The notes below the pieces were generated by a model. The model saw only the letters and a program-made list of their open reading frames with translations. It searched no databases and was not told the DNA's origin. Below, one piece after another: positions 2,842-19,892 of a stretch of 31,305 bases of DNA. The DNA lies in IMG/VR virus record IMGVR_UViG_3300035128_000047, positions 1 through 31,305 of that record. One strand, written 5' to 3'. Within the stretch, counting starts at the first letter, position 1, and each line of letters starts with the position of its first letter. The position numbers were made by a program, and so were the translations under genes. Source of the DNA: a virus.

Positions 2842-2874
2842 GGCATTTCCTTATATTGAATTTTATCTATTTGA

Positions 2875-2903
2875 TTGACAAATTGCTCTGCGTACCCTAT
2901 GAT
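2875..2903 (+). promoter_or_regulatory. Near-consensus sigma70 promoter for the Xis-like gene
   Basis: TTGACA (2875-2880), a 17-bp spacer and TATGAT (2898-2903). The expected start of transcription is near 2910, so the first in-frame ATG at 2913 would be almost leaderless. The ATG at 2934, behind AGAAGGAG, is the likelier translation start. The promoter is in the 71-bp divergent region shared with the lipoprotein gene. Confidence 0.7.
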
Positions 2904-2933
2904 GTGCGTATTATGAGCAATAAGAAGGAGCAT

Positions 2934-3113
2934 ATGACCACAGGTGAAGTGGCTTCGCGGATGGGAGTTTCGATTGATACCGTAAAGCGAATGCTAAAAC
3001 GAGGTGAATTCCCAAATGCTTGGAGGACAAGTCCCTTGATTGGTCATTGGCGGATTCCTTTGCAAGATGTTCTCGCAGTTGAAGAGAAGCAGAAAAAGCA
3101 ACAGGCAATTTGA
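2934..3113 (+). CDS. Excisionase/MerR-like helix-turn-helix protein
   Basis: The product is a small basic DNA-binding protein of 59 aa from ATG 2934 (66 aa if started at 2913). MTTGEVASRMGVSIDTVKRMLKR is the helix-turn-helix of the HTH_17/excisionase family. GHWRIPLQDVLAVEE is the usual wing and following helix of these proteins, and a KQKKQQ tail ends it. AGAAGGAG precedes ATG 2934, though the gap is short (3 nt). Its place 126 bp from the attP and on the integrase side of the genome suggests it is the recombination directionality factor. It could equally be the lysogeny regulator, since no CI-like gene is seen. It is transcribed from the strong promoter at 2875 and followed by a hairpin at 3126. 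Confidence 0.75.
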   Translation: MTTGEVASRMGVSIDTVKRMLKRGEFPNAWRTSPLIGHWRIPLQDVLAVEEKQKKQQAI

Positions 3114-3125
3114 CATAATGAGAAA

Positions 3126-3164
3126 TTAGAGGCCAGCAGTTTTGACCGAACATCTGGCCTCTAA
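3126..3164. terminator. Hairpin after the Xis-like gene
   Basis: Perfect 11-bp inverted repeat TTAGAGGCCAG (3126-3136) with CTGGCCTCTAA (3154-3164), 17-nt loop, 12 bp after the stop codon. There is no U tract, so termination would be weak. It may act as a transcript-stabilising stem. Confidence 0.5.
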
Positions 3165-3217
3165 ATTGAACGCACCTTAAAAACCAAATACGAGGAATTC
3201 AGTAATTAAAGCGCATT

Positions 3218-3237
3218 CAGAGGTGAACGCACCTCTG
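3218..3237. promoter_or_regulatory. 8-bp inverted repeat abutting the attachment site
   Basis: CAGAGGTG, an AACG loop and CACCTCTG end one base before the tRNA-matching segment. It could be an arm-type or accessory site for recombination, or a terminator. Confidence 0.4.
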
Positions 3238-3238
3238 T

Positions 3239-3279
3239 GACCCACCCAGGACTTGAACCTGGAACCGATTGATTAAGAG
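3239..3279 (-). other. attP: Phage attachment site attP: 3' half of tRNA-Lys(CUU)
   Basis: On the minus strand this reads from an anticodon loop CTCTTAA (anticodon CUU) through the 3' anticodon stem, a complete T arm (CCAGG, TTCAAGT, CCTGG) and the 3' acceptor strand GTGGGTC plus discriminator A. The 5' half of a tRNA is missing, so it is not a gene. It is the usual signature of an attP that restores a host tRNA on integration. The next bases hold a 12-bp perfect inverted repeat of GGAGCAGTTGAC (3293-3304 and 3310-3321). That arm matches the tRNA sequence just 5' of the anticodon loop. The integrase lies about 1 kb away. The host target predicted is a tRNA-Lys(CTT) gene. Confidence 0.8.
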
Positions 3280-3292
3280 GCCACGTGTGAGT

Positions 3293-3321
3293 GGAGCAGT
3301 TGACGTGGTGTCAACTGCTCC
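3293..3321. repeat. 12-bp perfect inverted repeat beside attP
   Basis: GGAGCAGTTGAC (3293-3304), five bases, then GTCAACTGCTCC (3310-3321). The arm is a piece of tRNA-Lys (D-stem end to anticodon stem). It is likely a recombinase-binding pair or a rearranged core site. There is no U tract after it, so it is probably not a terminator. Confidence 0.6.
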
Positions 3322-3363
3322 GAACGGATATTATGTAAGGTTTGAGCAGGTGGGATTGTGAGA

Positions 3364-4269
3364 GTTTGATGGCCGCTTGAGGCCAAAATCAAACAGGCAA
3401 CGGCCGTATACCGTCCTCCCGGTGCTGGACGGCCGTTGCCGTCTGGCTCCGATCAGACAACTTTTTATTAGAGGATGATGCAATTGCGACTGGAGTTTCG
3501 GTATTCGGTTGTTTGTGGATTTGCCGGTTCGATTCCGGCCGGAGCCTATGCCCCCCCTTAATGAAGCGGATAGCGCGGAGTATGTTGGCAGACAGAAAGG
3601 CGCTTATAACCCTAGATAAACGCATGTTGTTTCCGGTTTTTAGGGAGCCGGGGCCGTCGTGTCTCGACGACGAAAGAATTAGAGAGAATGAAGCTGCTTA
3701 AGTGTAGCCGCTGCTGGCAAAGCGTAACCCAGCCGGTGCCAATTCCGTGAATATTGGCCGGGGCTGCTGTCGTTATGAGCAGACGTTTCCGTTTACGTGA
3801 AATGTGGCAGCATGGCAACATGTTGGCGGAGACTGCCGATTTCTCCGCTTGAAATAGCCGGGAAAAGGCTTGTGGTTGATGCGGATAGGCCACGAGAAAG
3901 GCGCTCGAAGATGGTCCTGAATGGCATAAGCTCCTGATGTGAAGCTGCATGTGTTGCGGTGATGGACGTGCCGGGGTGCGCCAGGGTAGTGTAAATCTGG
4001 GCCTGACTACCCAAAGGGGGGTGGTGTGATGCGGTAATGCATCCCCACCCCTTACCATTATGGCCCTGATCACAATGGTATGTTGAGGGATACGGGTACC
4101 GTTGGTGATTTCGGTTCGATCCGAACAGGGCTTTTGAGCCAGGCGTTGGCTCAACACACAAGGGCAGCGGGCTGCGGAGCCGCTCCTCCTCAAGTCAAGT
4201 TATAAACCTCCCGGATTAAGCGTGGACGCTGTGAAAGCCTGTGGGGGCCGCTGCTCTTGTTATTTTTTT
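3364..4269 (+). ncRNA. Candidate large structured RNA with tRNA-like domain
   Basis: About 900 bases without a credible reading frame contain a dense succession of perfect stems. These include GTTTGAT/ATCAAAC (3364/3388), a 12-bp stem 3396-3407/3429-3440, a tRNA-like unit 3445-3546, CGTCGT/ACGACG (3655/3667), GCTGG/CCAGC (3713/3729) and CCGG-CCAAT/ATTGG-CCGG (3733/3753). Further on are AGCATG-GCAA-CATGTT with a GNRA loop (3809), GCGGAG/CTCCGC (3826/3843), GGGTAGT/ACTACCC (3984/4006), a G-rich stem 4014-4053, TACCATT/AATGGTA (4053/4074), a second T-loop-like hairpin at 4110-4125 and TTGAGCCA/TGGCTCAA (4134/4147). A 10-bp closing stem (4159-4168/4250-4259) runs into a T tract. The size, position by a tRNA-type attP in a phage and tRNA-like element recall the GOLLD and ROOL RNAs, but I cannot assign the class. 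The strand follows from the 3' T tract, and the 5' end is uncertain. Confidence 0.55.
3445..3546 (+). other. tRNA-like fold (acceptor stem plus T arm, no anticodon arm)
   Basis: Perfect 7-bp acceptor GGCTCCG (3445-3451) with CGGAGCC (3540-3546) and a canonical T arm GCCGG-TTCGATT-CCGGC (3523-3539). In place of D and anticodon arms there is one 8-bp stem CAGACAAC (3454-3461) with GTTGTTTG (3508-3515) around a 46-nt loop. At 102 nt, with no recognisable anticodon and no encoded CCA, it is not a normal tRNA. The layout resembles the tRNA-like half of tmRNA or tRNA mimics in large phage RNAs. A competing hairpin GTCTG/CAGAC (3441/3454) followed by TTTTT could act as an attenuator. Confidence 0.6.
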
Positions 4270-5297
4270 ATGTGGGAGAAGAAGTCGTCGGCGAGGGGGG
4301 ATTTTTTTTGGCGACGGTTGGCGGAGAGGCCAGCAACGGCGCTATCGACTTGGGAGGAGGCGTGGCGGTAATGTTTGAGTGTGGTGGTTACGTCTTTGTG
4401 ACCCAGCACTTTTTGGACGATGGTGGGGTCGATGCCTTTGTCGAATAGTTGATTGGCGTTCCTATGCCGGACGGCATGGGAACGGAAAATGGGGATGCCA
4501 ACGAATTTGCATATCCGATCAAAGGCCCTGGATTGGGAGGAGGGGAGGAGGCGGTTTCCGGTTTGGAGGCTGATGAAGACCCACTGAGATTTGATGTTGG
4601 CGGTGGCGGTTAGCCACTGAGTAAATAGTTCGGCGGTTTCGGTGAAGAAACGGCCGTGGGCGGCGTCTGTTTTGCCGTAGCTGGCTATGTGGTAAACGGG
4701 GCCGGATGCGGTCAGGGCGTGGCGCACGTCTTTGCGGCGGATGCGGTTGAGTTCACCCAGGCGCATCCCGGAGTCGATGGAGAGGCTGATGGTGAGGCCG
4801 TCACGGAGATCGCGGAGGTTGCCGTTGCGGTGGGCGATGAAGGCGGGGAGAGCGTCTAGGACGGCAAGAATGTGCGCTTCGGGGGCGGAGCGGTCGGTGG
4901 TGGGGGTGAAGGGGCCGATTTTAATATGGACGCCATAATTTTCGTGTAACCATTCTTGCTCATAACAGAATTTGAGGAACGACTTGAGATAGCTCCTAAT
5001 GCCGGCAATGGAAGCGGGTGCAAGGGGGGCCTGGCGGATTTGACGCAGGTGTTGGGAGAGGTGGAGCCGGGTGAAGTCGGTGACGGGGGTGGCTCCGTGA
5101 GCCGCCAGCAGGCGGGAGAGGCTCCATTTTGCTTTTTTGATGTGGCTGGCGCTGCTTTCATTTTCATCGAGGCTGATGAGCCAAGCAGCGGCGCAGTCGT
5201 TAAGTTTCAATTTGCTCTCCGCCCCCTCGCCGGTTGTAACGTAAGGTAAACGATTCTGGGGTGAATTTGTGTGAATGTTGCGTGAATTTTGAGGCAT
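4260..5297 (-). CDS. int: Tyrosine-family site-specific integrase
   Basis: The 345-aa enzyme is of the usual phage integrase length. Residues 30-125 form a SAM-like core-binding domain (KLNDCAAAWL...SYLKSFLKFCYEQEWL). Residues 135-320 form the catalytic domain with R179 (SGMRLGEL), K209 (YGKTD), H274-x-x-R277 (HAVRH), H300 (VLGHKD) and the nucleophile Y310 (LKHYRH). It has no long N-terminal arm-binding domain. It would recombine the attP at 3239-3279 with a host tRNA-Lys, with the HTH protein at 2934 as likely Xis partner. GAGGAAG stands about 5 nt before the ATG, and a TTGACA-17-TAAACT promoter is at 5387-5415. Although on the opposite strand it shares the element's G-rich plus-strand skew. 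Its last codons (KK) overlap the T tract of the candidate large RNA. Confidence 0.95.
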   Translation of the reverse strand: MPQNSRNIHTNSPQNRLPYVTTGEGAESKLKLNDCAAAWLISLDENESSASHIKKAKWSLSRLLAAHGATPVTDFTRLHLSQHLRQIRQAPLAPASIAGIRSYLKSFLKFCYEQEWLHENYGVHIKIGPFTPTTDRSAPEAHILAVLDALPAFIAHRNGNLRDLRDGLTISLSIDSGMRLGELNRIRRKDVRHALTASGPVYHIASYGKTDAAHGRFFTETAELFTQWLTATANIKSQWVFISLQTGNRLLPSSQSRAFDRICKFVGIPIFRSHAVRHRNANQLFDKGIDPTIVQKVLGHKDVTTTLKHYRHASSQVDSAVAGLSANRRQKKSPLADDFFSHIKK

Positions 5298-6468: not shown

Positions 6469-7436
6469 ATTCAACGGCGCAGGTATTACAGACGTTGCGT
6501 GGCGGGCGGTTGCATGTGTTGATCGCACTCTTCGCCCAGGCGGTGTTACCGGTAGGAGAGCGGCCGATTGCAGCGATGTGTGGGGTGAGTCGGAAGACGG
6601 TGCGGGCGCATTTGCAGACGTTGGAGGCGTTGGGGTTGGTGGTACATGGGGAGTTTAAGTCTAAGGCTACGTGGAATTTAACTGTGGCGGCGCGGCAATT
6701 GCCGCTGCCATTTGCTGTTGTTTCGGATGGGCGCATTCGTGGCGCTCATGAGTCCCTGGCTCCGTTGCCGGGATTGCTGCCTGGTTCGTTGCAGGCAGCG
6801 CGATCTCCGTTGGTCGTTGATGGGACAACAGGAAGTTATCCACAGGGTTATCCACAGGTTGAGGGGGGAGATGAGGGTAAAAGTTACCCTCACGGGCCTG
6901 GTGAGGGTAAAAGTTACCCTCACGGGGACACTTATTTAAACGTTGTTGTTGATCAAGTTAATTTAAAAGATCAACAACAACGTGTTCTAAGCAGCGGTGA
7001 GGGTAAAAGTTACCCTCACGGTTTGATGTGGGCGGTGTTGGAGTGGTTGGAGGTGGAGCGGCCGGAGTCGTTACCGCAGGTGGCACCGGCGTTGGCGCTG
7101 GCTTATGCGTGGTATGCGCTGGCGGAGGAGAAGATTGAGCGCCCGGCCGGGTATGTGATTACTCGCATTGTCCGGGGTGATTCTTCGCCGCCGGGTGATT
7201 GGTTGACGCTGGCACGAGCGTGGTTGGCGTTGGATGATGACCGGCGGCGGGTTGTGCTGGAGCAGTGGCGCCAGGCCAGTATTTACGGGTTTGATTTGCC
7301 CAGCGGCTTCCCCTGGCTGCCTTTCGGGGTGTTGAAGGCGCTGGCAAGTGTGAAACGGAAGCGGTTGGAGCGGGTGACGGGAAACGGGCTTTTTGCCCCG
7401 GATTGCCTGTTGCCGGAGGAGTGGCGTATGGAGTGA
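6465..7436 (+). CDS. Replication initiator with winged helix; carries the origin in its own sequence
   Basis: The product is 323 aa. Residues 1-75 form a winged helix-turn-helix (ERPIAAMCGVSRKTVRAHLQTLEALGLVV). Residues 124-186 are a low-complexity linker in which EGKSYPHG occurs three times, because the DNA there is the origin. Residues 187-323 form an alpha-helical, Trp-rich domain that may contact the host replisome. This is the architecture of lambda O: an N-terminal ori-binding domain, the iterons inside the gene, and a C-terminal partner-binding domain. There is no sequence similarity I can claim. No helicase, primase or helicase loader is seen nearby, so host proteins (DnaA, DnaB) are presumably recruited. 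Its ATG overlaps the stop of the preceding gene. The assignment rests mainly on the origin. Confidence 0.75.
   Translation: MNSTAQVLQTLRGGRLHVLIALFAQAVLPVGERPIAAMCGVSRKTVRAHLQTLEALGLVVHGEFKSKATWNLTVAARQLPLPFAVVSDGRIRGAHESLAPLPGLLPGSLQAARSPLVVDGTTGSYPQGYPQVEGGDEGKSYPHGPGEGKSYPHGDTYLNVVVDQVNLKDQQQRVLSSGEGKSYPHGLMWAVLEWLEVERPESLPQVAPALALAYAWYALAEEKIERPAGYVITRIVRGDSSPPGDWLTLARAWLALDDDRRRVVLEQWRQASIYGFDLPSGFPWLPFGVLKALASVKRKRLERVTGNGLFAPDCLLPEEWRME
6836..7019. other. ori: Origin of replication inside the initiator gene
   Basis: Two perfect DnaA boxes TTATCCACA lie 12 bp apart (6836-6844, 6848-6856). Three palindromic iterons follow (6872-6892 core, 6901-6923, 6997-7019), each GTGAGGGTAA, AAG, TTACCCTCAC, with the first lacking its outermost base pair. 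Between iterons 2 and 3 is a 15-bp perfect inverted repeat ACGTTGTTGTTGATC (6940-6954) / GATCAACAACAACGT (6969-6983) enclosing an AT-only-rich spacer (AAGTTAATTTAAAA), with TTATTTAAA just upstream. This AT-rich segment is a natural unwinding element. Everything is in frame within the gene. Confidence 0.85.
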
Positions 7437-19818: not shown

Positions 19819-19892
19819 GATTTGCGATTTGCGATTGACGATTGACGATTGTGTCACACACCGGCGGGGATTCTTTGCCGGTGTGTGACACA
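19819..19892. repeat. Composite repeat: five heptamers plus perfect palindrome after the capsid gene
   Basis: Five heptamers (GATTTGC twice, GATTGAC twice, GATTGTG; 19819-19853) start right after the capsid stop codon. The palindrome (19852-19890 in family register) is here a perfect 16-bp stem (19850-19865 with 19877-19892) around GGGGATTCTTT. It may terminate or attenuate transcription between the capsid and downstream genes. Confidence 0.85.

Follow-up and report, generated by a model that had tools for sequence, protein, structure and literature searches.

What, if anything, does this phage encode between its attachment site and its integrase gene? In the 31.3-kb virus record studied here (the window is the whole stretch of 31,305 nt), a gap of about 900 nt separates the two. 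A preliminary description, made from the letters of the sequence, proposed that this gap holds a large structured non-coding RNA with a tRNA-like domain, perhaps a distant member of the GOLLD or ROOL RNAs. We find that the locus is best read as a structured RNA with tRNA-like parts. Two tRNA-like modules occur there beyond chance, but the link to GOLLD is without positive evidence.

Genomic setting and probable host

Among the genes of the record are those of a tailed phage (TerL, portal, protease, and capsid), and an integrase gene lies on the minus strand. Its nearest TerL relatives share 63% identity in IMG/VR and 55% in a Chloroflexota genome, and a search for integrase relatives found none close. 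The attachment site said to adjoin the gap is real: It matches the 3′ half of tRNA-Lys(CTT), best in one Chloroflexota family with genomes of ~2 Mb, whose intact genes for this tRNA are 92% identical to it over 48 nt. Because intact genes of this family match positions 3237–3284, the attP reading is supported and a host is indicated; judged by this similarity, the phage probably infects a Chloroflexota bacterium.

The tRNA-Lys fragment of attP, flank included, recurs in diverged form (82%) at 2027–2081, ~1.2 kb from attP. A direct repeat, TGAACGCACCT, adjoins attP (3167–3177 and 3224–3234), and these may be integrase arm sites. One Chloroflexota genome (G500) has a tRNA-Lys(CTT) gene and a partial second copy 2.6 kb apart (L136, 3115–3161 and 5758–5831), which suggests that the site also serves a different integrated element in that genome. 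The features of the locus are collected in Table 1.

Table 1. Predicted features of the gap and its surroundings (window coordinates)
Feature	Position	Strand	Remarks
HTH_17/excisionase-like (xis-like) protein	2856–3113	+	HTH_17, 2.4e-9; PHROG 66 excisionase, 3.5e-10
attP core: tRNA-Lys(CTT) gene, 3′ half from anticodon loop through acceptor	3237–3284	−	92% over 48 nt
Candidate structured non-coding RNA, extent as proposed, 5′ end tentative	3364–4269	+	Without coding signal; MFE −354.3 kcal/mol
Hairpin H1, GTTTGA/TCAAAC and TGGCC/GGCCA	3364–3394	+	Pair probability 0.94–0.98; z −4.1
Hairpin H2, 12-bp stem 3396–3407/3429–3440, ACGGCCGT in both arms	3396–3440	+	Partly DNA-level effect
Terminator-like hairpin GTCTG(GCTCCGAT)CAGAC (3441–3458), then T-rich tail	3441–3470	+	Competes with module 1 acceptor
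tRNA-like module 1: acceptor GGCTCCG 3445–3451/CGGAGCC 3540–3546, T-arm 3523–3539, discriminator T 3547	3445–3547	+	
Internal motif copy 1, GCGGATAG N20 AGAAAGGCGC (3566)	3562–3604	+	
Hairpin CGTCGT/ACGACG	3655–3672	+	Pair probability 0.84
GNRA hairpin 3811–3822 and stem GCGGAGA/TCTCCGC	3806–3848	+	
Hairpin with motif copy 2, GCGGATAG N6 AGAAAGGCGC (3881), in loop and 3′ flank	3870–3905	+	Pair probability 0.85
Hairpin GGGTAGT/ACTACCC, 15-nt loop	3984–4012	+	Pair probability 0.97
Hairpin GGGGGGTGG...CCACCCCTT	4016–4053	+	z −3.8
tRNA-like module 2: acceptor GGCCCTG 4062–4068/CAGGGCT 4126–4132, arm 4069–4109, T-arm 4110–4125	4062–4132	+	
Hairpin TTGAGCCA/TGGCTCAA	4134–4154	+	Pair probability 0.88
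Terminal 13-bp stem 4158–4170/4248–4260, then T tract 4259–4269	4158–4269	+	Pair probability 0.95
Tyrosine integrase (int), 345 aa	4260–5297	−	Phage_integrase, E 1.1e-21

Coding potential of the gap

The preliminary description took ~900 bp to be free of genes, and we agree: No supported gene lies between the end of the xis-like gene and int. The genes of this phage have a strong codon-position bias, with third-position G of 0.46–0.67 in the plus-strand genes tested and third-position C of 0.58 in int. Unlike them, the ORFs of the gap, the longest included, have a flat base composition across the three codon positions. That longest ORF (193 aa, 3612–4193, minus strand) could in principle encode a small protein downstream from int, and a GGGAGG stretch is visible by eye upstream of its TTG start. 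We nevertheless hold this to be very improbable: Besides the flat codon positions of this ORF, neither Pfam, nor PHROG, nor tblastn against phages gives a match to it, and 32 of 1000 shuffles produce an ORF as long. By its composition, the gap between attP and int reads as non-coding.

Two tRNA-like modules

Two T-loop hairpins and one full acceptor-plus-T-arm unit without an anticodon arm had been described in the gap. Both hairpins are present (GCCGG-TTCGATT-CCGGC and TTCGG-TTCGAT-CCGAA), and the unit corresponds to module 1. A second acceptor and T-arm unit, module 2, had not been clearly counted.

In module 1 the acceptor and T stems are entirely Watson-Crick (12 of 12 pairs). No D or anticodon arm forms in its middle part, where a possible 8-bp arm, CAGACAAC/GTTGTTTG, can be seen by eye in their place. 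The T-arm and acceptor 3′ strand are identical over 21 nt to those of a phage tRNA-Thr(TGT) in a 269-kb viral contig (L154, 6455–6526), which also shares the discriminator and a 5′ GGCTC. Unlike this tRNA, module 1 is without a recognizable D or anticodon arm, is ~30 nt longer, and is not called by ARAGORN.

Module 2 is predicted to be a three-way junction without unpaired linkers, formed by a 7-bp acceptor (one G-U pair), a long arm of 4 + 8 bp standing where the D and anticodon arms would be, and a T-arm whose loop has 6 nt (TTCGAT). Its pair probabilities are 0.92–0.97 and its z score is −2.7 (−3.5 with flanks); a stretch in it, AATGGTA, resembles a tRNA D-loop by eye.

We scanned for such units with a descriptor consisting of a 5-bp T-stem, a TTCRA loop, and then a strand pairing with an upstream 6-mer. 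The window has exactly two matches, both in the gap, on the plus strand, and within 690 nt, and 1.13 Mb of comparison DNA has 11 matches in tRNAs and two others. A 7-bp version is found in four of 20,000 shuffles of the gap, although these chance figures are somewhat flattering because the descriptor was picked after the modules had been seen. The tRNA-like units exceed chance. By sequence, both modules qualify as tRNA-like elements: In each, the acceptor stem stacks on a T-arm with a canonical T-loop. Neither forms a cloverleaf with an anticodon arm: ARAGORN finds 0 tRNA genes, and the tRNA families of Rfam match neither module. Each module has the two strands of its acceptor close together, and so 3′ tRNA halves remaining from past attachment sites do not by themselves account for these units.

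Further helices and overall folding energy

The most confidently predicted helices of the region lie in its 3′ part (3984–4260). The long-range stem thought to close the RNA at a T tract exists there, tract included, but it closes only the last ~100 nt rather than the whole RNA. A terminator-like site (4241–4260) falls in this stem region, and the T tract is, on the opposite strand, also where the int gene ends. In the predicted fold, 4158–4269 forms a putative terminator, convergent with int, that would set the 3′ end of the RNA. Farther upstream, the GNRA-capped hairpin was correctly described (CATG-GCAA-CATG), and a pseudoknot appears possible by eye between GGCAG (3806–3810) and the loop CTGCC of the stem GCGGAGA/TCTCCGC.

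The competing helices noted earlier are also found, the hairpin at 3441–3458 and the module 1 acceptor at 3445 being mutually exclusive over 3445–3458. This arrangement could act as a transcription switch, in which the hairpin and its T-rich tail end a short leader unless module 1 captures the acceptor strand. We consider such a switch scarcely probable: The terminator-like hairpin is weak evidence because ~1.9 such sites are expected in shuffles of the region, and no supported plus-strand gene lies directly downstream to be controlled. Hairpin H2, locally the most conspicuous stem, is likewise poor evidence for an RNA, because the 8-bp palindrome in its arms pairs with any other copy of itself. 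The motif GCGGATAG...AGAAAGGCGC, present twice in the gap, was dropped as a strong signal; ~4% of shuffles satisfy a looser criterion, which makes its significance modest.

Fold energy is weak evidence for an RNA in the gap and is ordinary within the window. The 906-nt region has a z score of −3.1 (20 shuffles) or −2.1 (15 shuffles), and several other stretches of this length in the window attain −3.6 to −9.5. Tiles of 220 nt average −1.0 inside the gap versus −0.7 elsewhere, and the minus strand of the gap folds equally far below its own shuffles. The structural elements listed in the preliminary description are present in the sequence, but we weigh them differently, given the unexceptional overall fold energy and the inflated stem of H2.

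Comparison with known RNA families

GOLLD RNAs are often >800 nt, occur in phages and prophages near tRNAs, and may hold a tRNA in their linker; ROOL RNAs are large phage or prophage RNAs with a complex fold, also often near tRNAs (PMC12286853). The candidate RNA resembles GOLLD (RF02032) in size, phage setting, and place beside a tRNA-derived attP, and ROOL in size and location beside attP. It could then be a distant member of either, with module 1 as the tRNA sometimes present in the GOLLD linker. The covariance-model comparison proposed for the locus (GOLLD, ROOL, tmRNA, and group I and II introns) found no family membership. Among 4227 Rfam families scanned, with positions 2900–4400 taken to E ≤ 10 under permissive filters, no large-RNA family and no group I or group II intron matched the region, and the GOLLD model, which covers the conserved 3′ region, had 0 matches in the record up to E = 10. 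GOLLD membership is unsupported because neither scan produced a match; the candidate further differs from GOLLD in carrying two tRNA-like modules rather than intact tRNAs and in having no tRNA island. An Rfam model exists for ROOL, too; the whole-library scan gave no such match, and the candidate has no sign of the ROOL architecture. A distant GOLLD or ROOL RNA is thus highly improbable in our judgment.

Two further systems invite comparison. As in tmRNA (RF00023), an acceptor stem and T-arm occur with a long helix in place of the anticodon arm, but the match is confined to the 17-nt T-arm (10.2 bits, where the cut-off is 47), and neither the Rfam nor the ARAGORN scan gave a sign of a tmRNA body or tag frame. 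Bacterial Y RNAs (YrlA) are short non-coding RNAs carrying one tRNA-like module. The candidate shares with them a tRNA-like module within a non-coding RNA; it differs in being long, in having two modules, and in lacking an Rfam match.

Searches for homologs

No homolog of the gap was found in the phages and plasmids searched, in contigs of related phages, or in several hundred Chloroflexota genomes, all of which gave only chance or coding matches; these genome sets are samples, the large searches scored the top candidates per genome, and single-sequence models are weak. With blastn, the best matches among phages and plasmids had E values of ~1–3, and the one that we inspected falls within the coding sequence of a kinase-like gene. 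Neither the ~60 related-phage contigs identified via capsid and TerL nor the host-like Chloroflexota family yielded a homolog. A DNA search of 400 Chloroflexota genomes listed, besides tRNA, a single match to the body of the region, which is coding; 219 genomes of two Chloroflexota orders, partly overlapping the 400, yielded no gap homolog. Single-sequence covariance models (R1 and R2) found none either, the best R1 match being inside an NADH dehydrogenase gene. Pattern searches of IMG/VR gave seven matches to the motif GCGGATAG...AGAAAGGCGC (mostly in coding-like context, none sharing flanks), 26 to the purine-rich linker (those checked lie in open frames, 'ELERM'), and one chance match to the loop near 4000.

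One structured RNA or decaying tRNA genes

Two modules, the lack of a coding signal, and a place beside attP and int are the observations from which we infer transcription, a single RNA, its processing, and a function. Our preferred reading, in which we place middling confidence, is that 3364–4269 encodes one structured phage non-coding RNA with two built-in tRNA-like modules. The clustering of two plus-strand units that are rare elsewhere and in shuffles points this way, as do the T-arm, acceptor strand, and discriminator that module 1 shares with a real phage tRNA-Thr, the well-paired, linker-free junction of module 2, the 3′ stem followed by a T tract, and the lack of any tRNA call by ARAGORN. 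Against it stand the lack of homologs in the searched sets, and hence of covariation, and a fold energy that is ordinary for the window and matched on the minus strand. No convincing plus-strand promoter was found upstream of 3364, and that both modules belong to one transcript is an assumption.

The main rival is that the gap is an ordinary attP or regulatory region containing the decaying remains of two tRNA genes, once of the phage or its host. The remaining stems would then reflect chance and iterated palindromes, and there would be no single large RNA. This would fit an attP that is itself a tRNA fragment with a diverged second copy, the likeness of module 1 to tRNA-Thr and of AATGGTA to a D-loop, the unexceptional fold energy, and the missing homologs. 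We think it somewhat unlikely, however: Although the D and anticodon arms are missing, the acceptor and T stems are almost fully paired, and neutral decay would not be expected to leave one half intact; module 1 exceeds the length of a tRNA by ~30 nt; and related phage loci are almost without tRNAs.

Under the single-RNA reading, the transcript would run rightward from near attP and stop at the terminator overlapping the 3′ end of the convergent int. In each module, the acceptor stem would stack on the T-arm, and another arm would stand in for the D and anticodon arms. RNase P, the CCA-adding enzyme, and EF-Tu recognize the acceptor stem and T-arm of tRNA, and because acceptor/T-arm minihelices are generally known to bind such factors, the modules would probably engage those that process or bind tRNA. 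Host tRNA machinery would then cut the precursor at the module 5′ ends, ~3445 and ~4062. Alternatively, the modules might tether the RNA to the ribosome or to proteins that handle tRNA. The other hairpins would form a scaffold.

It is possible, though we rate it as unlikely, that the locus represents a class of large phage RNA that has not been described before and has no relation to GOLLD or ROOL, its two tRNA mimics giving it access to the host tRNA machinery during infection. We know of no function for large phage RNAs such as these two, and an RNA with tRNA pieces built into its fold would offer a direct handle on what such a molecule engages.

Iterated palindromes and other repeats in the window

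The palindrome seen in H2, ACGGCCGT (8 bp), has 36 copies in the window against 0.74 expected (for example, at 3400, 3429, 5431, 5486, and 11534) and is often lengthened to AAACGGCCGTTTC. A related phage (G002) has 11 copies (~1 expected), whereas 82 kb of DNA from the host family has none; in 350 Chloroflexota genomes, the long form is seldom present. From this distribution it looks like a phage-specific iterated site, whether an operator, a stoperator-like site, or one related to methylation or restriction. A second binding-site family is possible in the words ATCGTAAATC and GATTTACGAT, the 10-base ATCGTAAATC occurring seven times versus 0.04 expected.

On the minus strand, the strongest-folding part of the window is 6872–7019 (z ~ −10), where the palindrome GTGAGGGTAAAAGTTACCCTCAC occurs three times (6872, 6901, and 6997) together with a perfect 15-bp inverted repeat (6940/6969). 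A perfect 16-bp inverted repeat, TGTGTCACACACCGGC, lies at 19850–19892, within a 906-nt stretch from 19703 that has a z score of −9.5.
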